Positions 4,594-26,138 of a stretch of 64,000 nt of DNA are shown piece after piece. This DNA comes from Nitrospira sp. KM1 (GTDB taxonomy: Bacteria > Nitrospirota > Nitrospiria > Nitrospirales > Nitrospiraceae), in contig NZ_AP022671.1 of NCBI RefSeq assembly GCF_011405515.1, positions 3,100,001-3,164,000 of the forward strand, read 5' to 3'. Numbering within the stretch: position 1 is the first letter of the stretch; every line of letters begins with the position of its first letter. The translations under genes were made by a program, and so were the position numbers. The notes below the pieces were generated by a model. That model did not search any database. It had not been told where the DNA came from and saw only the letters and a list, made by a program, of their open reading frames with translations.

Positions 4594-5772
4594 ATGTTCT
4601 CATTTCAAGAAGATGTCGTCTCTCCGGTCCGGATCAAGGTCATCGGTGTCGGCGGCGCCGGATGTAATGCCGTCAATACCATGATTACCTCCGGGCTCGC
4701 TCGGGTTGATTTTATTGCGGCCAACACCGACCTCCAGGCCCTGGAGCGCTCGCGTGCCGGATACAAAGTTCAACTCGGCCCTGAACGGACAAGGGGGCTC
4801 GGCGCGGGGGCAAAACCGGAAATTGGAAAAGAATCGGCCTTGGAAAGCAAGGACCAGATCCGTGAGTGCCTTGAAAATTCCGATATGGTCTTCGTGACGG
4901 CTGGAATGGGCGGAGGAACTGGAACCGGAGCGGCTCCGATCGTGGCCAGCATTGCCAGGGAGTTGGGCATTCTGACCGTTGGCGTTGTAACCAAACCGTT
5001 TCAGTACGAGGGCCATCGCCGGATGTGCCATGCTGATGAAGGGATACGAGACCTGCGGCGACATGTCGATACCCTTTTGATCATTCCGAATCAGCGACTC
5101 TTGGGAATCGTCGACAAGACCACGCCGCTTCTGGAGGCGTTCAAAGTTGCGGATGATGTGTTGCGACAGGCGATCCAAGGCATTGCCGACGTGATCACGA
5201 CGACCGGCCATGTGAATGTGGACTTTGCCGACGTCCGCACGATCATGTCGCATACGGGGCGTGCCGTCATGGGCATGGGCGTATCCCGGGGTACGAACCG
5301 TGCCATCGAAGCGGCTCAAAAGGCCATTTCCAGTCCGCTCTTAGAGGAGGGGAGTGTGGAAGGCGCACGGGGCGTTCTGCTCAATATTACGGGTGGCCAA
5401 AACATGTCGCTTCATGAGATTGAAGAAGCTGCGTCGATCATCCAACAAACGGCAGATTCCGAGGCCAATATCATCGTCGGCCAAGTGATCAATCCGGACA
5501 TGGGTGATGACCTGGTAGTCACAGTGATCGCGACAGGGTTTGAGCGTGAGGAACAGCCGGCGGCGGCATCCATGGCAGCCTCCCGACCATCTCGAAATGC
5601 GCATCAGTCCATGAGTAGCGCAGCCGCAGTGGCCGACCGGCCACACAAAGATCTCGATCGGCCGACATTTCTTCGTCGGATGAGCGAATCCAACCATGCG
5701 ATGGACCGTGTGGCAGTGGTAGCGGACGACGAGTGGGATGTACCGACCTTTTTACGAAAGCAAGCTGACTAG
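4594..5772 (+). CDS. ftsZ: Cell division protein FtsZ
   Basis: This tubulin-like GTPase forms the cytokinetic ring. The start at 4594 is chosen because GGGAGGTG (4581-4588) sits just upstream; a longer TTG frame from 4573 would place that site inside the gene. The 392-residue protein has [11 protein letters not shown] (18-28), the tubulin signature [10 protein letters not shown] at about 105-116, and the T7 loop region '[11 protein letters not shown]'. Oddity: the C-terminal peptide that binds FtsA and other partners occurs twice, as DRPTFLRR (355-362) and [11 protein letters not shown] (382-392), separated by about 20 residues. Confidence 0.97.
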
Positions 5773-5793
5773 AACCGGACAATACACAATACG

Positions 5794-6528
5794 ATGCGCG
5801 CATCTGTGATCACGGTTCCAGCCTTCGCGTCGGCACGTGAAGGGGTCCGGCATTTTTTTGGCACGAAGGACGATGGCGGGTCACGTCCTCTGAGTGTGGG
5901 CATGCCGACGCGTACGGCCATGGGAAGGACCAAAAACTGGCTTCTGTCGGTCAGACAAGTACATGGAACGGATGTCTTGGTGGTGGATCATCCAATTGGC
6001 GAGTCGGACCGCTTTGAAGAGGGATGGGATGCGCTGATTACCAATCAGCCGGGACTCACTGTGGCGGTGAGAACGGCGGATTGTGTGCCGGTCTTGGTCT
6101 ATGATCGGAGGAAACGAGCCGTGGCCGCCATCCACGCAGGTTGGCGAGGAGCGGTTAGTGGAATACTTCCAAAGACGCTCGATCGATTGTCGAACCATTT
6201 TCAGATCGAACGCGGGGATCTTAGGGTAAGCATTGGACCGTCCGCCGGTCCATGCTGCTATGAAGTGGACGATGCGGTGTTGAACCCATTACGGAGCACA
6301 TTCTCAGGATGGGAGCAAGTGGTGCGCAACGATATGGGAAAGAAGACGCATTTCGATCTCAAAGCCTTCGTCAGGATGCAACTGTACCACTATGGCATCG
6401 AGCACCATCATGTAACGAGCGTCAACCTTTGTACGATTTGTCATGAGGAACTCTTCTACTCGTACCGAAGGGAAGGGCGCGTCAATGGAACGATGCTCAG
6501 TGGTATCAGCCTGATCGCGCAAGCATAG
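5794..6528 (+). CDS. pgeF: Peptidoglycan editing factor / polyphenol oxidase family protein
   Basis: This is a DUF152 (YfiH/PgeF) protein. Family members remove wrongly incorporated L-Ser from UDP-MurNAc peptides and also show laccase or purine-nucleoside activity in vitro. The 244 residues carry the metal-binding triad in QVHGTD (H57), ADCVP (C97) and IHAGWRG (H114). The gene follows ftsZ by 21 bases, a frequent position that fits a cell-wall quality-control role. Which of the reported activities applies here cannot be told from sequence. Confidence 0.88.
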   Translation: MRASVITVPAFASAREGVRHFFGTKDDGGSRPLSVGMPTRTAMGRTKNWLLSVRQVHGTDVLVVDHPIGESDRFEEGWDALITNQPGLTVAVRTADCVPVLVYDRRKRAVAAIHAGWRGAVSGILPKTLDRLSNHFQIERGDLRVSIGPSAGPCCYEVDDAVLNPLRSTFSGWEQVVRNDMGKKTHFDLKAFVRMQLYHYGIEHHHVTSVNLCTICHEELFYSYRREGRVNGTMLSGISLIAQA

Positions 6529-6574
6529 TCATCGCGCAAAGAGTTGAAGGCTGTAGCGAAATGTCCCTTCACCC

Positions 6575-7285
6575 ATGAGCCAATTGCCTGGATTCTCGAT
6601 CAGCGATCGGATCGGGATGGTGCGAGACAGAATTCAATCGGCCGCTTCACAATCGGGCCGGGATCCGCAGGCCGTCCGACTGGTTGCCGCCACGAAGGGT
6701 GTTTCGATCGAAAGGCTCAGGGAAGCCATCGGTGTCGGTTTGAACCTGGCCGGTGAAAATCGCCTTCAGGAAGCGCTTCCCAAAATCGAGGCCTTGCAGA
6801 ATACGCCGGTTCGTTGGCATTTTATCGGCCGATTACAACGCCGGAAGGTGCGGGCAGTTGTCGGGGTATTTGACGTGATCCACTCCGTAGACAGCCTTGA
6901 CCTCGCTCAAGAAATCGACAAACGTGCCGGGTTCGCTGGCATCCGGCAGGATATCTTGTTGGAGGTAAATCTCGGTGAGGAACCGTCCAAAGGCGGCTTC
7001 TATGCGGACCACCTCGAACGGGTGCTGCCGCAAATGGGGGGGCTGGCGCATGTGCGAGTGAAAGGGTTGATGATGATTCCGCCACTAGCTACTGTGCCGG
7101 GACACTCAAGGCCATATTTCCGTCGATTGCGCGAATTGGCACATAGCCTGTCCCGACAGTCGATCGGGGACGTCAGCATGGGCGAATTGTCAATGGGCAT
7201 GTCCGACGACTTTGTCGTCGCAATTGAAGAAGGAGCGACTCTGGTGCGGCTTGGCAGAGCGATTTTCGGAGAACGTGATGCCTGA
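6575..7285 (+). CDS. YggS family pyridoxal phosphate homeostasis protein
   Basis: This is a single-domain PLP-binding TIM-barrel protein of the PLPBP/YggS family, which buffers PLP and affects amino-acid pools but has no proven enzymatic reaction. The 236 residues include the PLP lysine in VAATKGVS (K41), and 'GLMMIPP' and 'LSMGMSDDFVVAIEEGATLVRLGRAIFG' near the C-terminus, which are the family's hallmark segments. The next gene, proC, overlaps its 3' end, a pairing common in bacteria. Confidence 0.92.
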   Translation: MSQLPGFSISDRIGMVRDRIQSAASQSGRDPQAVRLVAATKGVSIERLREAIGVGLNLAGENRLQEALPKIEALQNTPVRWHFIGRLQRRKVRAVVGVFDVIHSVDSLDLAQEIDKRAGFAGIRQDILLEVNLGEEPSKGGFYADHLERVLPQMGGLAHVRVKGLMMIPPLATVPGHSRPYFRRLRELAHSLSRQSIGDVSMGELSMGMSDDFVVAIEEGATLVRLGRAIFGERDA

Positions 7286-8090
7286 ACAGAGGTCCGATAC
7301 CGTAGCCTTCATGGGCGGTGGCCAGATGGCGGAGGCAATCATTGGCGGGTTGCTTGCGGGGGACGTACGGAGTGCCGAGGCCATTTGGGCGACAGATCCC
7401 GTGACGGCACGGCGAGATCGGCTGAAAAGTGAGTTCGGTATTCGCGTCGGTGCGGACAATCTCCCTGCTGTCCAGTGGGCGAGCATCGTTGTCTTGGCGG
7501 TGAAGCCTCAGCAGGTGGAACGGCTGCTCAAAGAGCTTGAAAGAGACTTATCGGGTCGAATAGTCGTGTCAATCGTGGCCGGGACATCCATTGCGAACAT
7601 CGCGGATCACTCTCCGGGAGCACGAATCATTAGGGCGATGCCCAACACTCCCGCGCTCGTACGAGAGGGTATGACGGCTCTGGCTTATGGTCCGAATGTG
7701 TCCTCCGATGACGTGGAACAGGTCAGAGCCATGTTTACGGCCGTCGGACGCGTCATTTCCGTCGAAGAGCATCTGATGGATGCGGTCACCGGACTCAGCG
7801 GAAGCGGCCCAGCCTATGTGTTCCAGGCGATCGAGGCATTGGCTGACGGAGGAGTGAAAGTGGGGCTCCCCCGTCAAACCGCGGAAATCCTGGCCGCCCA
7901 GACGGTGCTCGGCGCAGCACGGATGGTGCTCGAATCCGGTGAGCATCCCGCAAAGCTGAAGGATCGGGTCGCCTCGCCGGGAGGAACGACGATGGCGGGA
8001 CTCCATCAACTTGAACAGGGAAGGTTCCGTGCTACACTGATGGGTGCGGTTGAGGCCGCGACGAGGCGATCACGAGAACTGGGACGCTGA
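7278..8090 (+). CDS. proC: Pyrroline-5-carboxylate reductase
   Basis: This enzyme catalyses the last step of proline synthesis, the NAD(P)H-dependent reduction of pyrroline-5-carboxylate. The start at 7278 gives 270 residues, equal to the usual length, and has GGAG at 7268-7271; the open frame extends 22 codons further into the preceding gene. A Rossmann motif 'FMGGGQMAEAIIGGLL' lies at the N-terminus, and 'DAVTGLSGSGPAYVF' and 'KDRVASPGGTT' are the family signatures. The start overlaps the yggS-type gene by 8 bases. Confidence 0.95.
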   Translation: MPEQRSDTVAFMGGGQMAEAIIGGLLAGDVRSAEAIWATDPVTARRDRLKSEFGIRVGADNLPAVQWASIVVLAVKPQQVERLLKELERDLSGRIVVSIVAGTSIANIADHSPGARIIRAMPNTPALVREGMTALAYGPNVSSDDVEQVRAMFTAVGRVISVEEHLMDAVTGLSGSGPAYVFQAIEALADGGVKVGLPRQTAEILAAQTVLGAARMVLESGEHPAKLKDRVASPGGTTMAGLHQLEQGRFRATLMGAVEAATRRSRELGR

Positions 8091-8386
8091 TGTTCATAGG
8101 AGGAAATATCTTGCAGGGTTTTGCCACTGTTTTAGACACGGTCCTCTGGCTCTATATGTGGATCATCATTGCGCGTGCCTTGATATCGTGGGTGAATCCC
8201 GATCCATGGAACCCGATCGTGCAATTCCTTGAACGGGTTACCGAGCCGGTTCTCGCGCCGATCCGTCGATTTGTTGGGTGGCGCATCGGATTCGACATCT
8301 CGCCCATCGTGGCCATATTGGCGATCACGTTTTTGCAAGTCGCGGTAGTGCAAACCTTGCGCGACATCGCTGTCCGCATGAATTGA
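8090..8386 (+). CDS. YggT family membrane protein
   Basis: This is a small integral membrane protein (98 residues from ATG 8090) with two hydrophobic segments flanking the conserved 'ARALISWVNPDPWNPIVQFLERVTEP' type core (quoted in part). YggT proteins have been linked to osmotic tolerance and to division-site proteins in several phyla. A perfect AGGAGG (8098-8103) lies 7 bases before an in-frame TTG at 8111, so the true start may be 8111 (91 residues). It sits between proC and divIVA, an arrangement also known from Gram-positive and cyanobacterial division clusters. Confidence 0.85.
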   Translation: MFIGGNILQGFATVLDTVLWLYMWIIIARALISWVNPDPWNPIVQFLERVTEPVLAPIRRFVGWRIGFDISPIVAILAITFLQVAVVQTLRDIAVRMN

Positions 8387-8405
8387 TTCGTCCAAGGGGG
8401 ATGCC

Positions 8406-8918
8406 ATGAGAATTACACCGCTCGACATCCAGCAGATGGTCTTCAAGGCGAGCTTTCGCGGCTATGATAAGGAAGAGGTGAATCGGTTCCTCGAAGAGAT
8501 CGCGGAAACGGTTGAGATGTTGAACCGAGATAATGCCGTCCAGCGGGAGAAAATTTCCTTCCTTGAGCAGCAAGTGTCCGAACTCAAGCGAACCGAAGTC
8601 ACGTTGTCGAACACGCTTGTTTCGGCTCAGTCGCTCGCAGAGGATGTCAAGCGAAGTGCCCATCGTGAATCGGATCTGATACTGAAAGAGGCAGAGCTGA
8701 AAGCCGGTGAGATGATTCGCAAAGTCCGTATGGAGATGAACGATACTCAGAGGGATCTGGCGTCTCTCCAAAAGCAGCGGTTGCTGATGGTGGAGCGCCT
8801 GCGGGCGACTTTGCGAACGTTTGAACGCATGTTGGAAGTGGAAGAGCAGGAAGCGTTTTCCGACAATCCATCGACCGTTGAGGATAACCTCGAGGGAGAG
8901 TCGAGCGCCGCGCTCTAG
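8406..8918 (+). CDS. divIVA: DivIVA domain-containing protein
   Basis: This is a coiled-coil protein that typically binds curved membrane at poles or septa and recruits partners. The N-terminal lipid-binding domain is clear: 'ITPLDIQQMVFKASFRGYD' then 'KEEVNRFLEEIAE'. Most of residues 30-150 is heptad-rich coiled coil, ending in an acidic tail. The gene has GGGGG at 8396-8400 before the ATG. With 170 residues it is of usual length. Its place at the end of the fts-yggT run suggests a role in growth or division-site placement. Confidence 0.9.
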   Translation: MRITPLDIQQMVFKASFRGYDKEEVNRFLEEIAETVEMLNRDNAVQREKISFLEQQVSELKRTEVTLSNTLVSAQSLAEDVKRSAHRESDLILKEAELKAGEMIRKVRMEMNDTQRDLASLQKQRLLMVERLRATLRTFERMLEVEEQEAFSDNPSTVEDNLEGESSAAL

Positions 8919-8990
8919 GGGCGGCACAGTTCGGTACGTTTGGGCGTGATTCTGTCCCCAGTTGTTCTTGGGATTTTCCTCCAAAAGAAT

Positions 8991-10115
8991 ATGGTGTCAC
9001 CGCACATAATCCGGACGGCCTTGCAGGAGGCCGTTCATGACGGAGTATTCCCCGGCGCCGTGCTGGCTGTCCGTGCGGGCGGTCAGGAGCGATTCATCTT
9101 GCCTGTCGGTCGCTTGACCTGTGACCCTGAAAGTTCGCCAGTAACCGAGTCGACGATTTACGATCTCGCCTCGCTCACGAAGCCCCTGGCAACGGTTACA
9201 TCGTTGCTATTGCTCTTTCAGCAGGGGAGATGTTCGCTGGAAACATCGGTCGAGGAAGTACTTCAGTCGTTCCAAGGCAGCGCAATCGGGACCGCCACGG
9301 TAAGAGATCTTCTCACGCATAGTTCAGGCTTGCCGGGTTGGAGACCGATCTACGAGCGGCTAGCCCAGATGGGGCCGGGTGTCGCTCCCCTTCACTCGGA
9401 CATGTTGCGCAATTCCCTTGAGACAATCCTCCGGAATGAACCGCTAATTTATCCGAGAGGATCTAAAAGTCTGTACAGCGACCTAGGATTTATTCTCCTG
9501 GGATTGATGATCGAACACACGACTGGCTTGCCGCTCGACCGCTGGTTCGACGACGCAGTCGCGATGCCATTTGGAGCTCCTCTCCTGGGTTACCGTCCAA
9601 CCACGAAATTCTCTTCACAGCTTGGCGGTGGAGAGAAGACTGCCATGAGGATTGCGCCGACGGAATCAAATGCTTGGAGAGACGGAGTCACACGCCACGA
9701 AGTACACGATGAGAACGCGGCTGCGATGCGAGGAGTCGCTGGGCATGCGGGGCTTTTTGGAACTGCCGAGTCCGTGCTTGCGATTTCAGGTGCATGGCTG
9801 AAGGCTTACCATTCGACCGGATGCCGGCTTGAGCATTCACTCGTGAGGCAGTGGGTTGCTCATCAGAATATTTCGAATTCGAGCTGGGCGCTTGGATGGG
9901 ATACACCATCGAAGGATTCCTCATCCGGGCAGTATTTTTCCGAGCAATCATTCGGGCATTTGGGATATACGGGAACTTCGCTCTGGATTGACCCGGTGAA
10001 ACGTATCGAAGTGGTGCTCCTGTCCAATCGCGTGCATCTAGGTCATGACAACAATAAGATCCGGACGTTCCGACCTCGAATTCATGATCTCATTATGCAG
10101 GAATGTGCAACGTGA
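8991..10115 (+). CDS. Serine hydrolase, beta-lactamase (class C) / PBP-like family
   Basis: This is a member of the AmpC/DD-peptidase/esterase superfamily. From the ATG at 8991 it has 374 residues with the nucleophile motif S61-L-T-K64, Y162-S-D (the YxN equivalent) and a C-terminal 'HLGYTGTS' in the KTG position. Family members can be carboxypeptidases, esterases or lactonases, and the substrate is not predictable. The frame is open upstream to a TTG at 8940; the extra 17 residues are hydrophobic ('ILSPVVLGIFLQ') and could be part of an export signal, so the start is uncertain. Confidence 0.8.
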   Translation: MVSPHIIRTALQEAVHDGVFPGAVLAVRAGGQERFILPVGRLTCDPESSPVTESTIYDLASLTKPLATVTSLLLLFQQGRCSLETSVEEVLQSFQGSAIGTATVRDLLTHSSGLPGWRPIYERLAQMGPGVAPLHSDMLRNSLETILRNEPLIYPRGSKSLYSDLGFILLGLMIEHTTGLPLDRWFDDAVAMPFGAPLLGYRPTTKFSSQLGGGEKTAMRIAPTESNAWRDGVTRHEVHDENAAAMRGVAGHAGLFGTAESVLAISGAWLKAYHSTGCRLEHSLVRQWVAHQNISNSSWALGWDTPSKDSSSGQYFSEQSFGHLGYTGTSLWIDPVKRIEVVLLSNRVHLGHDNNKIRTFRPRIHDLIMQECAT

Positions 10116-10124
10116 ACGAGCGAT

Positions 10125-10442
10125 CTAGGCGGGGTCTTGGTAGTCGATCCACGTTTCTTTTTCGGCCAGATATTTCGTGCCTCGAAAATTCAGTCTCGTG
10201 CGCATCTTACTAAACCCCAACGGGTGGAGTTTAGCTACAAGCTCCCTCACGGCTGAAGCGACTGTGGGGTAAGACTGTCCTTCGACCGTCAATGCTTCAT
10301 ACATGACCTTTGCCGAATATCCAGACGGGGTTCGATTCACCAGTATGGCACGATTGAAGTAGCGGTCACTTGGATCGACTCCTTCGATCTGATGTTTTTC
10401 GACGAGGCCTTCCTTTTTAAACAGCGATGACAGAGAACTCAT
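10125..10442 (-). CDS. Conserved hypothetical protein, 105 residues
   Basis: I do not recognise a named family. The start is set at 10442 because GGAGGAG lies directly before it on the minus strand; the longer open frame to 10637 would run into the pgsA promoter region. The product begins MSSLSSLFKKEGLVEKH and appears to be a compact soluble protein with alternating beta-like and basic segments ('LGFSKMRTRLNFRGTKYLAEKETWIDY'). It has no signal peptide or transmembrane segment. It lies convergent with the serine hydrolase gene, 9 bases away. Confidence 0.7.
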   Translation of the reverse strand: MSSLSSLFKKEGLVEKHQIEGVDPSDRYFNRAILVNRTPSGYSAKVMYEALTVEGQSYPTVASAVRELVAKLHPLGFSKMRTRLNFRGTKYLAEKETWIDYQDPA

Positions 10443-14387: not shown

Positions 14388-15757
14388 TCGTTGACGATGA
14401 GCAAAGCCTTCGCGAGGTCATGAGCATCATGCTTAAGCGTGCGGGATATGCCGTAACGGAAGCTTCCGACGGAGAAGAAGCCATTGGACAGATCAATAAG
14501 GACATCTTCGATCTCGTGATTACCGACCTTCGAATGCCAAGGGCGGACGGCATGGACGTCCTCAAAGCAGTCAAGTCGAACTCTCCAGAAACCGTAGTGC
14601 TGGTGGTCACCGCGTTTGCCACGGCCGACTCTGCCGTCGAGGCCATGAAGCAGGGAGCCTATGACTATCTGACTAAGCCGTTCCAAGTCGATGAAGTGCA
14701 GCTCATCGTTCGGAATGCGCTCGAAAAACGACGCCTGACGACCGAGAACATTCTCCTCAAACGCGAGATCGCCAGTCAGTCATCGTTCGCGCAGATCGTG
14801 GGTCAGAGCGATGCCATGAAGAAAGTCTTCGACGTGGTCAGAAAAGTCGCGGACGCGAAAAGCAACGTGTTGATCTGCGGCGAAAGCGGAACGGGAAAAG
14901 AATTGATCGCCCGTGCCATCCACTACAACAGCGCGCGAAGCCCGATGCCATTCGTGGCTGTGAATTGCAGTGCGGTTCCCGAGACGCTCCTCGAGAGCGA
15001 ACTCTTCGGCCACGTAAAAGGGTCATTTACCGGCGCTGTGGCCAATAAGGCCGGTCTGTTCGAGGTTGCGAACGGAGGCACAATTTTCCTCGATGAAATC
15101 GGCGATACGACACCGACCATTCAGGTAAAGCTCCTGCGAGTGATCCAAGAGCGGGAGTTCCGCCGTGTGGGCGGCAATCAGGATATGAAGGTCGATGTCC
15201 GCGTGATCGCCGCCACGAATCGGGAATTGGAGAAGGCTGTGGCGGATGGATCGTTTCGTGAGGATCTGTATTATCGTCTCGATGTCATTCCCATCCGGCT
15301 TCCACCGTTGCGACTCCGAACGGGAGATATTCCGCTCCTGGCCAAACATTTCCTGGAGAAGTTCGCGAAGGAGGGCGGAAGGTCGGCTCCATCATTGACG
15401 CAAGACGCCGTGCAAGTCCTCCTCGGTCATGAATGGCGTGGAAATGTACGTGAATTGGAGAACCTGATCGAGCGCGTAGTGGCATTCTGTTCGGGAAAGG
15501 ACGTTTCCGGAGCTGATATTCAAAGCTGGTTGCATCATGCCGTCGCCCCTCCGTCGCCTCAAGGGACACCAACCGATCTCCCCGAAGACGGGTTGGATCT
15601 CGAGGTATTGATCAACGGTATTGAAAAGGATCTGCTTCTAAAGGCCCTTGAACGCACCAAGTGGGTCAAGAAGAAAGCCGCGCGGCTATTGCGGCTCAAT
15701 ACACGCTCGTTTCGATACCGGCTGGAGAAGTATGCTATAAAAGGAGGCCGTGACTAA
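14372..15757 (+). CDS. Sigma-54-dependent response regulator, PilR/NtrC family
   Basis: This DNA-binding activator has a receiver domain with phospho-acceptor D52 ('[12 protein letters not shown]'), an AAA+ domain with Walker A GESGTGKE at about 170 and the sigma-54 contact loop as GSFTGA (about 217-222; GAFTGA is more usual), and a C-terminal Fis-type helix-turn-helix ('[19 protein letters not shown]'). The start is GTG 14372, overlapping the kinase gene by 16 bases. The product has 461 residues. With the kinase it forms a pair that most resembles PilS-PilR. Confidence 0.9.
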
Positions 15758-16673
15758 AAGTTTTCCAGCCTCGGATCCCACGCCACAGGATATTGTCACA
15801 GTCGCCGCTCCCGCCAAAATCAATCCGATACTGCGCATTCTGGACCGCCGTCCAGACGGTTACCATAATCTCTGGTCCGTCATGCAGACGGTGGGGCTCG
15901 AAGATGAGGTCCAGATGCGTCTCCTGCCGGGACGACACGACATTCGTCTCCACTGTGATACGGAACAGCTGGCTTCGGATCATACGAATCTCGTGTATCG
16001 GGCTGCTTCCGCAGCGATAGGCCGGTCTCGACGATCGACTGGTCTGGAGATTAAACTTTCAAAACGTATTCCAATGGGTGCGGGTCTCGGCGGTGGTAGC
16101 AGTGATGCTGCAGCCACCCTAATTGGACTCAACCGGCTGTTGAACATGCACTGGTCACGCGAGGAAATGGCGGCAATGGGCGAGCCTCTCGGTAGCGACG
16201 TGCCGTTTTTCCTCTTTGGCCCGTCAGCCGTCGTGTCCGGACGAGGAGAGAAGGTTCGACCAGTCAATATTGAAGGACCAAGGTGGGTGGTGCTAGTGAA
16301 TCCAGGGTTTGGAATTGAGACCAGATGGGCCTACGCACAATTGGCGGCATCAAGATCTTCTGTGAATCCTGCATCGTGGCATCCTCCGCGCCCCTACGAT
16401 GCTGAACATGTGACATGGGATCAACTGGCTCAAGACAGTGAAAATGATTTCGAAGGCCCTGTATATGCCAAGCATGGAATTTTAAAAGAGCTCACTCAAG
16501 CATTGAGAGATCAGGGAGCGGAAATGGCGCTGTTATCCGGAAGCGGGGCAACCGTTTTTGGGATATTTCGCCATGAAGTTGCGGCAAAATTGGCCCGTAA
16601 GCACTTCGATGGTCTTAAGAAGATACAAACATTTGTCGTGCAGACCTGTTCCGGGCCGCGTATCGTTCCCTAA
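15750..16673 (+). CDS. ispE: 4-diphosphocytidyl-2-C-methyl-D-erythritol kinase
   Basis: This GHMP kinase catalyses the fourth step of the non-mevalonate isoprenoid pathway. The 307-residue protein begins 'VTVAAPAKINPILRIL' after a short leader and contains the phosphate-binding loop 'PMGAGLGGGSSDAAA' near residue 112 and the C-terminal 'LLSGSGATVFGIF'. The GTG start overlaps the regulator gene by 8 bases; AGGAGG at 15742-15747 is only 2 bases from it, unusually close, and no better in-frame start is seen. Confidence 0.93.
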   Translation: MTKSFPASDPTPQDIVTVAAPAKINPILRILDRRPDGYHNLWSVMQTVGLEDEVQMRLLPGRHDIRLHCDTEQLASDHTNLVYRAASAAIGRSRRSTGLEIKLSKRIPMGAGLGGGSSDAAATLIGLNRLLNMHWSREEMAAMGEPLGSDVPFFLFGPSAVVSGRGEKVRPVNIEGPRWVVLVNPGFGIETRWAYAQLAASRSSVNPASWHPPRPYDAEHVTWDQLAQDSENDFEGPVYAKHGILKELTQALRDQGAEMALLSGSGATVFGIFRHEVAAKLARKHFDGLKKIQTFVVQTCSGPRIVP

Positions 16674-16699
16674 AGCTGCAGAGTCTTCGTGTCTCTCGG

Positions 16700-16729
16700 T
16701 TGACAAGGCCTCAGCATTTCCGCTACATT
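16700..16729 (+). promoter_or_regulatory. Candidate sigma-70 promoter for prs
   Basis: TTGACA (16700-16705) and TACATT (16724-16729) are spaced by 18 bases, giving a leader of roughly 140 bases before prs. The leader holds no recognisable riboswitch or tRNA. Confidence 0.45.
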
Positions 16730-16876
16730 TCAATCCCTCAGTTGGCTTCCTCAACAGCGCGCAGCGAATAGAGGTAGGCGGGTTCGAGAGTACGCCCACC
16801 GACGCCCGCCGTCGAGACGAACCACGTACGAAATTTGGACCGTTCCGGGCCGCCCGGATGTCCGTTTGAGGGATCG

Positions 16877-17818
16877 ATGAGCAGAGAATTGATGATTTTC
16901 TCTGGCAACGCGAATCCGGCCCTCGCTCATGAGATTTGCGCCTATCTCGGCGTCAAACTTGGTGAGGCGACCGTGTCGTCATTCAGCGACGGCGAAATTC
17001 GGATCAAGATCGAAGAAAATGTGCGTGGGGCCGACGTTTTCGTTGTTCAATCGTCCTGTGAGCCGGTCAATGATTCGCTCATGGAATTATTGATCATGAT
17101 CGATGCACTTAAGCGCTCATCGGCCAACCGCATCACGGCGGTCATTCCTTACTTCGGTTACGCCAGACAGGACCGTAAAGACCAGCCTCGAGTACCGATT
17201 TCGGCCAAGCTGGTGGCCGATCTGATCAGTACCGCCGGTACGGATCGTGTGCTGACGATGGATTTGCACGCAGGACAGATTCAGGGGTTTTTCAATGTTC
17301 CCGTGGACCATCTTTACGCCTTGCCTGTGCTACTGGATTACATCACAAAACAGAAATTGGCCGACCTGGTCGTCGTGTCGCCGGATGCAGGAGGCGTGGA
17401 GCGTGCCAGGGCATTTGCGAAACGCTTACAGGCGAATTTAGCCATCATCGACAAGCGGCGTGAGGGGCCGAATCAGACGCAGATCATGAATATCATCGGT
17501 GATGTCGAAGGGAAAAGCGCCCTCTTGTTAGACGACATGATCGATACAGCGGGTACGATCGTGCAAGGCGCTCGGGCCTGTGCTGACAAAGGCGCTCGTG
17601 AAGTCTGGACAGCCTGTACGCATGCGGTCCTTTCGGGACCTGCGCTCGAACGTCTCCAAAACTCCTGTCTCCGACAGGTCGTCATCACCAATACAATTCC
17701 AATGCGTGGGAAAGAGCAAGTCTGTCCTAAGTTGCATCAACTGTCAGTTGCCCCGCTCTTGGGCGAAGCGATCCGGCGCATTCATGAAGACGAGTCGGTC
17801 AGTTCCTTGTTTGCATAG
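16877..17818 (+). CDS. prs: Ribose-phosphate pyrophosphokinase
   Basis: This enzyme makes PRPP from ribose 5-phosphate and ATP for nucleotide, His and Trp synthesis. From ATG 16877 (GAGGGA at 16868-16873) it has 313 residues, the standard length. Recognisable segments are '[18 protein letters not shown]' at the start, the ATP loop '[11 protein letters not shown]', and the PRPP loop '[12 protein letters not shown]'. It heads a run prs-rplY-pth-ychF with short gaps, a gene order found in many bacteria. Confidence 0.96.
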
Positions 17819-20373: not shown

Positions 20374-21006
20374 TTGATCCCTCTCTTCCACGGCTCGGCA
20401 TTAGCGGACAATCGATACCCTCGTAAGATTTGGATCCCCTGGGGTCTGTGCCCTCTCATTATGGCGATGTTGGGGATGTTGGCGCCGCCGTCATTCACAG
20501 AGGCGGCAGAGATGAGGCTTGAATCTTTGCTCTTGAGGGGAGGCGTCAGCGGCAGTTCGGTGATTGGGGAAGAGCAACAGACGGATTTTGGTCAGATCGA
20601 CCTTGCGCTCACCGCGAAGCTTCCGTGGCAATGGGAGGTCGGATCTGACTGGATTCTGGGAACTCGTCTCCTGACCTCTGCCGGGGCTCTCCGAGGAGCA
20701 CATGAAACCAATGGAATATTCACGCTGATGCCGTTTGATGTCAGCTTCGGTCGAAAAGATCAACGCGTATCCATTGATATCGGCGTCGGCGGGGCCCTAC
20801 TCACCGACTACAGATTTGGCAAGCAAAATTTCGGTGGACCGTTCCAATTTGTCTGGACATTCGGAGTGCGCAGCCGAATAGCCGGTCCCATCGGACTCGG
20901 CTATCATTTCCAACATTATTCCGATGCCGCGATGTACGGAAGTGATAGCCGCGGCGTTGATCTGCATCTCCTAGAACTCATCTACTGGTTCGAGCCCTAT
21001 TGGTGA
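20374..21006 (+). CDS. Acyloxyacyl hydrolase (PagL-like lipid A 3-O-deacylase)
   Basis: This is a predicted outer-membrane beta-barrel. The N-terminus has a basic stretch (RYPRK) then a hydrophobic segment and a probable signal cleavage near 'FTEAAE' (about residue 45), which supports the upstream TTG start over the ATG at 20461. The rest alternates like an eight-strand barrel. The C-terminal motif 'YHFQHYSDAAM' (H181, S183) matches the catalytic His-Ser of PagL, with Asp in place of the common Asn, and it ends in aromatic residues. The likely role is trimming of the lipid A 3-O-acyl chain. Confidence 0.78.
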   Translation: MIPLFHGSALADNRYPRKIWIPWGLCPLIMAMLGMLAPPSFTEAAEMRLESLLLRGGVSGSSVIGEEQQTDFGQIDLALTAKLPWQWEVGSDWILGTRLLTSAGALRGAHETNGIFTLMPFDVSFGRKDQRVSIDIGVGGALLTDYRFGKQNFGGPFQFVWTFGVRSRIAGPIGLGYHFQHYSDAAMYGSDSRGVDLHLLELIYWFEPYW

Positions 21007-21208: not shown

Positions 21209-21868
21209 CTAGTAGCGGACCCTGCTTCTAGGGATTTGTTGAACTGACCGTGCGATGCGTCTCAGTTCGCCGACAAAGCGTTTGTATTCCTCGCTGCGTC
21301 GGGCTGCGTCGGGCTGATGAAGGATCGCCGACGGATGGACTGTCACGAACACATTCGGACTCATGGACGTCTTCCATCGCCGATTTCTCATTTCATGCAA
21401 GCGGATAGCTTTGCCAAAGATAGCTTGTGCGGCCGTCGTCCCAAGACATACGATCGCGCGTGGCTTGATAGTCTGTACTTCAGCTTCCAGCCAAGGCCGG
21501 CAGGCGGCCAGCTCCTTGGCAGAAGGTTTCTTGTGCTTTCGGCGCTTGCTGAGGGGCTCCCACTTGAAGTGTTTGACCGCATTCGTCACATAGGTTTGTG
21601 TCCGGGCAATGCCGGCGTCTGCCAGCGCACGATCGAGAACCCTTCCTGCCGGTCCAATAAAGGGGCGGCCTGTCCGGTCTTCCTGGTCGCCCGGTTGTTC
21701 TCCCACGAAGAGTAACTCGGCGCGCGGCGGCCCATCCCCAAACACCGTTTGAGTAGCTTGCCGATAGAGATCGCATCCGGTACAGACTGCGGCGGCTCGT
21801 TTCAGTGCCGGCAGGGCCAGTCTGACGGGGATGAACGGAGCGGCGGATCGGTCATCACGGCGTTGCAT
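21209..21868 (-). CDS. Uracil-DNA glycosylase, UdgX-like (family 4 type, 4Fe-4S)
   Basis: The 219-residue protein has the UDG motif A as GEQPGDQED (56-64), the form typical of UdgX, motif B region HPSAI (178-182), four candidate cluster cysteines (C29, C32, C123, C141) and a basic insert KRRKH (108-112). In mycobacterial UdgX the insert is KRRIH and its histidine becomes covalently linked to the uracil-excised site. Here the histidine (H112) is kept but Ile is Lys. The start at 21868 overlaps the dnaE2 3' end by 67 bases, so it is translated from the same mRNA. Covalent chemistry is inferred, not shown. Confidence 0.88.
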   Translation of the reverse strand: MQRRDDRSAAPFIPVRLALPALKRAAAVCTGCDLYRQATQTVFGDGPPRAELLFVGEQPGDQEDRTGRPFIGPAGRVLDRALADAGIARTQTYVTNAVKHFKWEPLSKRRKHKKPSAKELAACRPWLEAEVQTIKPRAIVCLGTTAAQAIFGKAIRLHEMRNRRWKTSMSPNVFVTVHPSAILHQPDAARRSEEYKRFVGELRRIARSVQQIPRSRVRY

Positions 21869-24800
21869 GCATTCTCATACCACGGCTCTGGGGGTATGCG
21901 CGCCTCTGATTCTTGTTCCTTGCCTTCGAGCAATTGAAGATCATGAACCGTCAGGGTGACGGCGCCGAGCATTTCCTCGACAAGCCCGCGCACGATATAC
22001 GGCCGGTCGGGTGCCAGGAGATGATGGCAGCGCCGATACACGTTCGGAAAGAGAGTCCCGTCATACAGGGCGGTGGTATCTTCAAGCGTGATAAATTCCA
22101 TGGGCAGATCGCTTTTCGTGGTCACGGATTTTTCCGTGATCAACCAGCCGACCATTGTGATACGATGTCCGACAAAACGACCCATCCGGGAGGCCGGGAC
22201 CGGTCGCAGTCGCTCGATTTGCCGCCGATAGAGGGTCAACGGATGGCGGCTTATCAAAAAACCAAACGATTCTCTTTCATGGAGCTGCTTCTGCAAAGCC
22301 GAGTAATCCTCAGGAACCGGCAACGGTCCAGAGGATAGGCAGGCCTCCGCATACAGCCGCCACAACAACGCCGGTCGCGTAAGCTCTCCGGCAATCGCAT
22401 CACAGCAGCCGGCGCGAATCAATGCGCGTGCCTGACTTGGTTTCAAGTTGACGCGCTTCAAAAAATCTGAGAACGAACGAAAAGGACCGCCCTCCGTCCG
22501 TTTCTTGATGATCTGCTCACCAAGATCCTTGGAGATCGTCTTGACCTGCATCAAGCCCATGCGGATCCGATCCCCCTCACCGCGATACGCCCAGTCGCTG
22601 GCGTTAATATCCGGAGGGAGTATGGCGAGTCCCATCCGCCGTGCCTCGGAAAGATAGGCAAAGGTCGAATAGAACCCACCCTGGTTGCTGATGACCGCGG
22701 CCATAAACTCGGCCGGATGGTGCGCCCTAAGGTACGCAGCCTTGAACGATACCTGCGCATAGCTGGCTGAATGAGGCTTGCAAAAGCTATAGCCGGCGAA
22801 GCTCATGATCATCCGCCAAATCTGCTCGATCACGAGTGGCGAGGCACCGTTTCTGGCTGCTCCTTGGCAAAACTGTCTATAGTAATCACCCAACTGCCGC
22901 TCTTTATGCTTTTTGCTGATAATCTTGCGTAGTTGATCCGCGTCTTCCACGGAAAAATCCGCCAGGGCCATGGCGACTTTGGTGACATCTTCCTGATACA
23001 CCATGATGCCGAACGTCTCGGCCAGAATAGGCTTCAGCTTCTCGTGCAATGGCTTGAATTGTTCGCCATGTGCCCGCCGTACAAAGTCATGGACGAAAGT
23101 GATGGCGGCAGGCCGGACAAGTGAGGAGACAACAACGAGATACTCGAAGACATCCGCAGTCGCCCGGCACGCGGCGGGCATGCCGCTCCACAGTTTTTTC
23201 AGCAACAACCTCGTGGCCGGTGATTCGACATAGAAGCAGCCGATAGTATCTCCGCGCTGGATTAGTTCTTTAGTGGCCTCGTCCTGCAATGGATCCCAGT
23301 ACGCATAGTCGAGCAATCGTCCGGTATGGCTGGCGATCGCGGCCAGTGCATCGCGAATGACGGCCAGCGAGCGGTTTCCGAGTAGGTCGATCTTGACGAG
23401 TCCCGCCTCTTCTGCCTGGTCTTTTTCCCATTGAATGACGGGCCGCTGAGTCGTCGTCGATTCGATGGGCACGTACCGCCGGATGTCATCCGGCACGATT
23501 ACGACTCCTCCGCAATGCTGGGAGAGATGTCGGAAATGATTCCGTGCTCCAAGAGCCTGATAGAGAATGTCGGGCCAGGGGGCATGTAATCGAAGGGATC
23601 CGGAAAGTTCATGCACCCATTGTTCGCGCGTCTGGGCTTTCAGAAACCCCTGCTGGCGCATGATGCGAGAGGAGATCGCCGTGATCTCTTGTGCCGGCAT
23701 GCCATGGACTTTTGCGGTTTCGCGGATGGCTGCACGCAAGCCAAGGCTATTCTGGTTTGCCACCATGGCGATACGACCGGCGTATTGTTTGAATACATCG
23801 TTGATAATCTTGTCGCGCTCGTCCCACGGAAAGTCGATATCGATGTCGGGAGGATCCTTACGCCCGGAATTCAAAAACCGTTCAAAGAACAGCTTATGCG
23901 TGAGGGGGTCTACGTGGGTAATGCCCAGACAATAGGAGACAATCGAGGCGGCGACCGAACCTCGGCCGCACGTTAGGCGTGACCAGACAATGTCCTGGAC
24001 GATCAGAAAGTAATGCGCAAACCGGTTGTCTCTGATGACTGCGAGTTCCTTTTCAATCCGTTCACGGATTTCATGGGAAACGACGCCGTAGCGGGCCGCG
24101 GCGCCTTCATACGTCTGTTTGCGCAGCTTGACGCACGCTGCTTCATCCGACAGTCCTTGAAAAGCGTGAACGACCAACTTACCGAACGTCCAATCGCTGT
24201 GACAGGCGCCGGCGATCCGCACCGTGTTCTCCAGCGCTTCCGGTACGTGAGGGAATTGCGACGTCATATGTTCGGGTGATGCCAGCCATTGAGTCGGTGA
24301 GCAGCAGGCTTCAGGCGGGAGACGAGACAGGGTGGTATTCAGATCAATGGCCCGCAAGAGACGATGGGTTTCGATGTCCGATGGGTTTGCAAAATACACT
24401 CGATTGGAGGCGACGGGAGGCACTCCGGTACGTCGGCTCCATTGGACGGCCCGATGCATGGCCGGGCCCGGTGTCAACTCGACATACAGGTCTTGGCGGG
24501 CATCATGCCCCCAGGCCGTGAGCGCCTCTTCGTCATCGGTGATGAGAATCAGTCCGCTGCGATGACGGGCAACCGCAGTGACAAAATCAAAGGAGGAACC
24601 GGAGTGCCGTTCGGACAAGAGGCGGCATAAGTTAGAATAACCCTCCAGAGTTTTGATCAGTAATACGGTGCGATGTTCGCCCGCCGTCAATTCGGCGCCG
24701 AGAATAGGCCGTATCCCGTAGTGACGCGCTTCCTCGATGAATCTGATGGCGCCATACAGTCCGTTGGTATCCGTGACGGCGAGGGAGGTCATGCCGTATC

Positions 24801-24897
24801 TTTTCGCCGACTCGCAAAGCACGGCGAGTGGTGACACCCCGCGCATCGGAGAATAATCCGAATGCACGTGAAGATGAATGAACTTGGAAGGCGTCAT
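21802..24897 (-). CDS. dnaE2: Error-prone DNA polymerase III alpha subunit DnaE2 (ImuC)
   Basis: This C-family polymerase works in damage-induced translesion synthesis with ImuB. It has 1031 residues from ATG 24897, which overlaps the imuB stop (ATGA). The N-terminal PHP domain begins 'KFIHLHVHSDYSPMRG'; the catalytic Asp pair is in 'DPPDIDIDFPWDERD' near residue 350; the helix-hairpin-helix and the C-terminal OB domain ('GHRITMVGWLITEKSVTTK') follow. The order imuB-dnaE2 is that of known mutasome operons, but no imuA or lexA homologue is adjacent. Confidence 0.95.
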   Translation of the reverse strand: MTPSKFIHLHVHSDYSPMRGVSPLAVLCESAKRYGMTSLAVTDTNGLYGAIRFIEEARHYGIRPILGAELTAGEHRTVLLIKTLEGYSNLCRLLSERHSGSSFDFVTAVARHRSGLILITDDEEALTAWGHDARQDLYVELTPGPAMHRAVQWSRRTGVPPVASNRVYFANPSDIETHRLLRAIDLNTTLSRLPPEACCSPTQWLASPEHMTSQFPHVPEALENTVRIAGACHSDWTFGKLVVHAFQGLSDEAACVKLRKQTYEGAAARYGVVSHEIRERIEKELAVIRDNRFAHYFLIVQDIVWSRLTCGRGSVAASIVSYCLGITHVDPLTHKLFFERFLNSGRKDPPDIDIDFPWDERDKIINDVFKQYAGRIAMVANQNSLGLRAAIRETAKVHGMPAQEITAISSRIMRQQGFLKAQTREQWVHELSGSLRLHAPWPDILYQALGARNHFRHLSQHCGGVVIVPDDIRRYVPIESTTTQRPVIQWEKDQAEEAGLVKIDLLGNRSLAVIRDALAAIASHTGRLLDYAYWDPLQDEATKELIQRGDTIGCFYVESPATRLLLKKLWSGMPAACRATADVFEYLVVVSSLVRPAAITFVHDFVRRAHGEQFKPLHEKLKPILAETFGIMVYQEDVTKVAMALADFSVEDADQLRKIISKKHKERQLGDYYRQFCQGAARNGASPLVIEQIWRMIMSFAGYSFCKPHSASYAQVSFKAAYLRAHHPAEFMAAVISNQGGFYSTFAYLSEARRMGLAILPPDINASDWAYRGEGDRIRMGLMQVKTISKDLGEQIIKKRTEGGPFRSFSDFLKRVNLKPSQARALIRAGCCDAIAGELTRPALLWRLYAEACLSSGPLPVPEDYSALQKQLHERESFGFLISRHPLTLYRRQIERLRPVPASRMGRFVGHRITMVGWLITEKSVTTKSDLPMEFITLEDTTALYDGTLFPNVYRRCHHLLAPDRPYIVRGLVEEMLGAVTLTVHDLQLLEGKEQESEARIPPEPWYENACNAVMTDPPLRSSPSDWPCRH

Positions 24898-26078
24898 CGT
24901 GAGGTTCGCCCACGGGAGATGGCTCCTGTTCCCCATTTTTCCCGGATTTGATCCAATGCGAGGGAGAGCCGATGATGCGCCGTCGGCTCAGTGCCGGCCG
25001 TCGACACAAACAGGGATAATTGCTCATGCGGGAATTCCAGGCGATCAGCGCAAAGTACCATTCGTCTGAGCCGGACACGGCGACGGAAGCCGCGTATCAG
25101 CAAGTGTGTCAGCACCGGCTGAAGATCGGCCTCCCAGCAGGTGGCGCATGGAAGGAATTGGCGTACGATCCGTTCGTTCCCATCGCTGTGACGGATGGTC
25201 AAGCACAGCCGCCGGCAGGTTCGTCGTTGTTGCCGAAGTGCCATGCAGAGTTGTTCCGATAGCTCGTAGAGCCGCCCTAAAAGATAGTGATAATCCACTT
25301 CACCAGGCGTCAGATCGACCGAACGTTCGATGGAGGGTTGTGCGATCGGCGGTCGCACAGGAGAGGAGTCGATCCCAAGCGCCCAGTTACGAAGGGACTC
25401 GGCCGCTGAGCCAAATGCCGATTTCAGATGGTCTGGTGACACGTCGGCAATGGATCCGAACGTCCGGAGGTTTAAATCGTCCAGACGACGTTTGATGTGA
25501 GACGCCTGCACATGGTGGAGTCCTGGGAGCAACATGGTTGGTAACGGTGCAAGGAACGACCGTTCCGAGCCGGCATGAACAGAGAGTATTCGTGTCGGGC
25601 GGTCGAGAGACGTGGCGGCAAGTTGAGCGACCAACTTACTGCCGCCCAGTCCAATGACGCTGTCCAATCCCTGCATGTGCATAATCTCCCGTCCGATACG
25701 TGTCGCGGTATCCATGGGAGCGCCAAAGAGGCGGGTGGTGCCGGTCAGATCAAGAAACAATGAGCCTGGGCGGATCGATTCCCATACCGGTGCAAAATAG
25801 GCGATACGAGATTGTAATTCTCGATGCGCGGCTTCGAGCCGCCAAAGGTCAGAAAGGACAATGCGCAGGGCAGGGCATAACCGGCCGGCCACGTCAACCG
25901 ACATGCCAGGCATCACTCCTTCGTCGAACGCTTCTTGAGAAGTTTCTCGAATCAATGCTCGGGATACCCGAGACGAGACGGCAGCCACAGGCCGATGTCG
26001 CAATGAAGGTTCATGCTTCCTGGCAAGTGCGATTGCGAATGATGGAATTTGAAAACAGACGATAGAACGGTCGACCAT
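24894..26078 (-). CDS. imuB: ImuB-like Y-family DNA polymerase homologue
   Basis: The 394-residue protein has the Y-family fold ('LFLDLTGTTRLFG', 'VIGLGGSKLVAQLAATS', little-finger region from about 245). The catalytic acidic residues of DinB-type enzymes are missing: the N-terminal strand reads VCFQIPSFAIAL instead of one with the metal-binding Asp, and the SIDE motif reads PGSL. This is the ImuB pattern, an inactive scaffold. Near the C-terminus QLSLF (353-357) fits the beta-clamp-binding pentapeptide, so it can bring DnaE2 to the clamp. It is the first gene of the minus-strand cassette. Confidence 0.88.
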   Translation of the reverse strand: MVDRSIVCFQIPSFAIALARKHEPSLRHRPVAAVSSRVSRALIRETSQEAFDEGVMPGMSVDVAGRLCPALRIVLSDLWRLEAAHRELQSRIAYFAPVWESIRPGSLFLDLTGTTRLFGAPMDTATRIGREIMHMQGLDSVIGLGGSKLVAQLAATSLDRPTRILSVHAGSERSFLAPLPTMLLPGLHHVQASHIKRRLDDLNLRTFGSIADVSPDHLKSAFGSAAESLRNWALGIDSSPVRPPIAQPSIERSVDLTPGEVDYHYLLGRLYELSEQLCMALRQQRRTCRRLCLTIRHSDGNERIVRQFLPCATCWEADLQPVLTHLLIRGFRRRVRLRRMVLCADRLEFPHEQLSLFVSTAGTEPTAHHRLSLALDQIREKWGTGAISRGRTSR

Positions 26079-26138
26079 GTAGCCAATGGTTACAAATAAT
26101 ATCGTGCAGAGTCAATCCCTCAAACCGATATAAAAAAT

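Follow-up and report, generated by a model that had tools for sequence, protein, structure and literature searches.

Introduction

What does a uracil-DNA glycosylase (UDG) of the UdgX family do at the end of an error-prone polymerase operon? The question is raised by the imuB-dnaE2-udgX genes in a 64,000-nucleotide stretch of the Nitrospira sp. KM1 genome (GCF_011405515.1, contig NZ_AP022671.1, positions 3,100,001 to 3,164,000), referred to here as the window; surveyed loci and genomes are cited by L and G numbers. The physiological role of UdgX has been described as largely unknown (PMC10359453). The protein captures uracil sites covalently, as assayed on single-stranded DNA, and a protection of abasic sites has been proposed for it, with RecA-dependent or proteolytic resolution of the complex (PMC10359453). 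In this analysis, UdgX was found to belong very probably to a damage-induced regulon together with a polymerase, judging from a shared operator, and udgX was located beside mutasome genes in five phyla. Our literature search returned no paper naming both UdgX and dnaE2, and the word glycosylase does not occur in the DnaE2 association-module survey PMC12926913.

Organization of the operon and identity of UdgX

The operon is encoded on the minus strand and consists of an imuB-like gene (26078-24894, 394 amino acids, with PF00817/PF11799 matches), a dnaE2-like gene (24897-21802) for a DnaE paralogue without the C-terminal part of DnaE1, and udgX (21868-21209, 219 amino acids). The names imuB and dnaE2 are used for convenience only. 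A preliminary description of this DNA had reported overlaps of 4 bases between imuB and dnaE2 and of 67 bases between dnaE2 and udgX, and both were recovered. The longest dnaE2 open reading frame (ORF) begins at 24936; the family-consistent start is the ATG at 24897, which gives an ATGA junction with imuB. For udgX, the ATG at 21868 is the only possible ATG/GTG/TTG start, so the 67-nucleotide (nt) overlap follows. In relatives, the udgX/dnaE2 junction is an overlap of 49 nt (six loci) or 4 nt (one locus), or a gap of 6 nt (one locus), and this adjacency or overlap is maintained though the proteins are only ~65% identical. Because the genes overlap and a single conserved operator stands at the front, the proposal that the three genes form one transcription unit is supported.

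The udgX product scored 262 bits against the UdgX model TIGR03914, above the curated cut-off of 189.95, and matched Mycobacterium smegmatis UdgX among PDB sequences in a phmmer search (E=1.5e-51). In Pfam, it matched the UDG superfamily only, with no SRAP domain. Motif A (GEQPG) is present at residues 56-60, and the R-loop reads KRRKH, in which H112 equals the nucleophilic H109 of M. smegmatis UdgX in the alignments. Motif B is HPSAILH, compared with the family pattern HPS(S/A)(L/V)(L/V)R; the final Arg, kept in nearly all relatives, is replaced by His. The structure model (predicted local distance difference test, pLDDT, 89) gave UdgX proteins as all of its top 30 PDB fold matches, with template modelling (TM) scores of 0.80-0.85. 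The UdgX-like label of the preliminary description is thereby confirmed, as far as family score, catalytic residues and modelled fold can establish a true UdgX; the same three features exclude a family-4 UDG mistaken for UdgX or a chance match. Three further UDG-superfamily genes were identified in the genome.

A putative LexA-like switch for the operon

The operator GTAACCATTGGCTAC occupies 26079-26093 on the minus strand and abuts the imuB ATG. Its palindromic 15-bp consensus, GTARCCAWTGGYTAC, was observed 15-35 nt upstream of imuB in 25 of 25 clade-A loci, with 14-15 of 15 positions matching. Exactly two perfect copies exist in the 4.5-Mb genome: one at imuB and one immediately ahead of the gene for an orphan LexA-like S24 repressor (G000:159075-159620, 181 amino acids, helix-turn-helix and Peptidase_S24 domains). 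This repressor scored 131 bits against the lexA model TIGR00498 (cut-off 110.95) and has an AG cleavage site and the Ser/Lys pair. A second locus in the same genome, at 1.02 Mb (L123, G000:C1:1023000-1028800), comprises an S24 repressor, imuB, dnaE2 and a DUF72 gene, without udgX, and its repressor is associated with a different palindrome, GTGACATTATGTCAC.

Since the perfect operator is found only at imuB and the repressor gene, and the second locus uses another palindrome, the imuB-dnaE2-udgX operon is predicted to have its own LexA-like switch. With two targets, the repressor gene and the mutasome operon, the regulon would thus give the mutasome a private switch, and the S24 domain suggests that this switch responds to damage. 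The operator sequences give good support to a co-regulation of UdgX and mutasome, and the earlier interpretation as a damage-response module gains support from the repressor gene that shares the operator. Across 15 further Nitrospira genomes, between zero and three exact copies were counted per genome. In G171, G326 and G315, they lie at imuB and before an orthologous repressor (65-79% identical), and G202 has one additional site without an assigned target.

Other features were observed around this operator. In G147 (L241 1508-1900) and G264 (L248 1143-1508), an extra exact copy stands at an ORF of 121-130 amino acids, which possibly represents a third member of the regulon; the ORF at the L248 copy, the one tested, had no Pfam match. 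In the window, the imuB start codon adjoins the operator directly (26078-26093), with no space left for a ribosome-binding site, unlike in relatives, where imuB starts some 6-20 nt further from the operator; the imuB mRNA may have almost no leader. A promoter-like TTGAGG-16-TATTAT (26096-26123, minus strand) a few bases upstream of this operator was marked by a consensus scan alone, with 9/12 matches, a level about as frequent in shuffled sequences. Promoter and terminator scans showed no clear excess over shuffles. Downstream, a PagL-like lipid A 3-O-deacylase gene (20374-21006) is convergent with udgX, and similar proteins are encoded downstream of udgX in G149 and G316.

An ImuA-less polymerase pair

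In the Y-family protein, comparison with active homologues showed the catalytic D/D/E residues replaced by Q/G/S. The protein carries a clamp-like motif (QLSLF) and ends right after LSLALDQIREKWGTGAISR, a RecA-NT-like motif that agrees with the N-terminal residues of the RecA encoded in this genome (LDLALSQIEKQYGKGAIMK); only one of 3000 shuffles scored as high. An ImuB-C domain was not found, the C-terminal part of the L035 ImuB being without counterpart here. The DnaE paralogue exceeded the cut-off of TIGR00594 (610 bits) and scored below those of the error-prone model PRK05672 (577 bits, cut-off 939) and the replicative model PRK05673 (669 bits, cut-off 1002). Canonical DnaE2 partners in L035, L096, L201, L225 and L323 score 1096-1471 against PRK05672. 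The alignment of the paralogue stops short of the C-terminus of the genome's DnaE1, and in the DnaE tree it falls in a separate Nitrospiraceae clade with 100% support, whose placement beside DnaE1 is unsafe because the branches are long.

Other gene families of this genome were checked by targeted searches. The reported absence of imuA was borne out: none is present in the operon and none scored above the cut-off in the genome, where the best ImuA-model match is RecA (49 bits vs 150). The preliminary description had further placed udgX in the third position usually held by imuA. This part did not stand; udgX is appended 3' of dnaE2 and elsewhere adjoins cassettes that do contain imuA (L035, L044, L057, L201), which excludes UdgX as a replacement for ImuA. 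The naming as imuB-dnaE2 holds insofar as an inactive Y-family protein is paired with a DnaE, and fails insofar as the pair is not canonical. With its inactive Y-family protein bearing RecA-NT, no ImuB-C, no ImuA and a DnaE below the error-prone and replicative cut-offs, the pair fits, by sequence, the ImuA-less iPolY-DnaE2-RecA variants (PMC6511836; for the DnaE2B/DnaE2X groups, PMC12926913) better than the canonical ImuA-ImuB-DnaE2.

Distribution within Nitrospirota

The survey across Nitrospirota and other phyla that had been recommended as a check identified nine Nitrospiraceae loci and independent cases in four other phyla, which excludes a single-genome curiosity. UdgX above the cut-off was present in 9 of 295 Nitrospirota genomes. 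The Nitrospiraceae loci with imuB-dnaE2-udgX (the window, L036, L037, L038, L040, L128, L129, L134 and L135) were found by an ImuB family search and inspection of neighbourhoods, and many relatives were observed to encode imuB-dnaE2 without udgX. In the UdgX tree, the nine proteins form one clade with a detached copy, L039 (support 97). In the ImuB+DnaE tree, the presence of udgX is scattered and needs six changes, and L132 retains a remnant matching UdgX residues 1-41 at the dnaE2 end. The simplest reading of these trees is that udgX was gained once in the Nitrospiraceae clade and then lost repeatedly. Furthermore, in G183, from another Nitrospirota family, udgX stands upstream of lexA-imuA-imuB-dnaE2.

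Some individual loci show further rearrangements. The detached L039 copy (G199) contains an internal stop and lies amid transposase genes, and the imuB-dnaE2 of the same genome (L131) is without udgX. In L038 (G169, 5663-9165), dnaE2 is split into several frames, with imuB and udgX still open. Two relatives encode an operon of radical SAM TIGR03916 and a DUF4130-UdgX fusion (L041 in G115, 7657-10310; L042 in G112, 14561-17219). The Candidatus Manganitrophus plasmid CP114559 was rejected as an additional linked case, as no imu genes are annotated within 9 kb on either side. Its record (CP114559.1) begins with a UdgX-like ORF, at positions 2-595, that is absent from the gene table.

Recurrence in other phyla

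UdgX was also observed beside dnaE2/imuB cassettes in Acidobacteriota, Verrucomicrobiota, Actinomycetota and Pseudomonadota, and in the second Nitrospirota lineage, with differing gene orders. These cases came from a named genome scan and from random draws (Acidobacteriota, Verrucomicrobiota, Pseudomonadota, Actinomycetota) with inspected neighbourhoods. The udgX gene is divergent from imuA in L044, L057 and L201, in tandem as lexA ... imuB-dnaE2-udgX in L096 and L225, convergent with dnaE2 in L323, and near the cassette in L122, L366 and L349. In two actinobacteria, L355 and L359, it is divergent from dnaE2 and adjoins a Y-family gene with an intact catalytic motif. A perfect TCGAAC-N4-GTTCGA box, the SOS box of actinobacteria, lies between the divergent udgX and dnaE2 in both.

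Among 85 stand-alone UdgX of the random draws, 6-7 linked loci were observed against 0.72 expected by chance (P 1e-4 to 1e-5), and in five of the loci the genes were immediate neighbours, where chance predicts 0.076 (P 2e-8); the expectations assume that a 4.5-Mb genome contains two cassettes. L367, in which the DnaE is partial and 5 kb from udgX, and L228, whose genome was the centre of a draw, were left uncounted. On the UdgX tree, from which L218-L220 were omitted for lack of the R-loop histidine, the linked label needs 11 changes, of which at least three are forced by well-supported branches. The association is not restricted to one mutasome type, since the DnaE partners of linked UdgX form three separate clades. 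UdgX genes are otherwise mostly unlinked or tied to the radical SAM-DUF4130 system, and UdgX and the mutasome do not need each other, because most UdgX genes and most Nitrospiraceae imuB-dnaE2 loci occur unlinked.

In one Acidobacteriota clade, udgX was observed beside recA (L212, in tandem at ~150 nt) or within ~4 kb of it (L206, L209), possibly another SOS link of UdgX. Weak 'ImuA' matches near udgX in these three loci proved to be RecA.

Possible role of UdgX in the operon

Gene identity, overlap, recurrence and shared operator are observed; what UdgX contributes has to be weighed. The overall reading that we prefer, to which we give an even chance, is that UdgX, induced by damage, acts as a partner to a DnaE mutasome of the ImuA-less kind and caps abasic sites during gap filling. 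The dedicated S24 repressor would bind the palindrome in the imuB promoter and in that of its own gene. When DNA is damaged, the RecA filament would induce the repressor to cleave itself, and the three operon proteins would then be made together. The Y-family protein could then bind RecA through its RecA-NT motif and the clamp through QLSLF, bringing DnaE to gaps. UdgX would excise uracil from deaminated cytosines in the exposed single strands. Its R-loop histidine would attach covalently to the abasic sugar and protect the site against strand cleavage until the gap has been filled or recombination is complete, the same job as that of SRAP/HMCES. Uracil capture, as the preliminary description had suggested, may in this way be coupled to error-prone synthesis. 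Shielding is favoured in our ranking over the three explanations considered below because UdgX captures uracil sites covalently and because SRAP proteins, reported to form cross-links with abasic sites (PMC9436759), occur in the same class of operon, the imu (mutasome) operons (PMC3765255).

Several observations weigh against the shielding reading. Most Nitrospiraceae imuB-dnaE2 loci are without udgX, and about 90% of the stand-alone UdgX genes in the random draws are not near dnaE2. Co-transcription is absent or merely possible in L323, L225 and L096. In addition, the position of R184, which helps DNA binding in the M. smegmatis protein, is taken by His in the window UdgX, and the shielding step relies on chemistry measured in another species.

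The first of the other explanations is that UdgX mainly removes uracil arising from DnaE2 synthesis, as misincorporated dUMP or as deaminated bases in the copied patch, and so limits the mutation load, the covalent complex reflecting slow turnover and not a shield. SOS-regulated UDG systems have been proposed to handle the products of induced error-prone polymerases (PMC8565304), and the linkage, found with several DnaE groups, therefore follows error-prone synthesis in general. However, no turnover of UdgX was seen on uracil-DNA (PMC10359453), and the three other UDG-superfamily genes would serve for ordinary removal, which leaves this role unlikely.

Less probable again is that the covalent adduct of UdgX with DNA keeps abasic and uracil sites from being copied by translesion synthesis and channels them into recombination that depends on RecA; udgX would then serve, within a mutator operon, as a safety valve against mutation. 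That udgX has often been lost from the operon suggests that a mutasome lacking it can be tolerated, even if the RecA-NT motif of the Y-family protein, the proposed RecA-dependent resolution of UdgX complexes (PMC10359453) and the inhibition of mutagenic translesion synthesis reported for HMCES (PMC9436759) would all agree with such a brake. Finally, a chance insertion of udgX behind dnaE2 in a Nitrospira ancestor, carried along passively and matched elsewhere by coincidence, would suit the single Nitrospira clade, the many relatives that have lost udgX and the mostly unlinked UdgX genes elsewhere, but is made improbable by the five phyla with differing geometry and at least three forced label changes, the excess of immediate neighbours, the SOS boxes shared in L355 and L359, and the adjacency retained at such low protein identity.

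Returning to shielding, a wider version is put forward only tentatively: UdgX may, across bacteria, regularly accompany DnaE2-type mutasomes as an optional accessory, converting uracil in exposed single strands to protein-capped abasic sites as a programmed step of damage-induced gap filling. If true, this would be the physiological role long sought for UdgX, and a second, unrelated solution to the SRAP/HMCES task. That UdgX shares a regulated unit with mutagenic polymerases in the five phyla links it to damage-induced synthesis, and the linked loci offer concrete places to test its natural role.

Comparison with known systems

The window protein resembles M. smegmatis UdgX in family score, GEQPG motif, R-loop histidine and fold. 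It differs in its location in a mutasome operon, in the His at the R184 position and in an R-loop of KRRKH and not KRRIH. The UdgX domain is also shared with the radical SAM TIGR03916-DUF4130-UdgX operon (COG4277-COG1573), and the UDG-COG4277 operon is known in SOS regulons (PMC8565304); the partners differ, however, and in G112 and G115 this operon sits away from imuB-dnaE2.

Compared with the ImuA-ImuB-DnaE2 cassette of M. tuberculosis and P. aeruginosa, the window likewise encodes, as one unit under predicted damage control, an inactive Y-family protein with a clamp motif and, after it, a non-replicative DnaE, whereas ImuA and ImuB-C are lacking, the DnaE falls below the error-prone cut-off and udgX is added. 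The iPolY-DnaE2-RecA variants share the inactive PolY with a RecA-NT motif adjoining DnaE2 and the absence of ImuA; unlike them, the window operon has udgX as third gene and a regulator in trans with a two-target regulon.

The closest parallel in way of working, the only aspect compared, is with SRAP/YedK/HMCES proteins beside imu operons (PMC3765255), where a class of protein capable of covalent abasic-site capping is likewise encoded with error-prone polymerase genes. The fold and chemistry are unrelated, and UdgX both makes and captures the abasic site, starting from uracil. The comparison suggests that mutasome operons have twice recruited covalent abasic-site capping, once with UdgX and once with SRAP.

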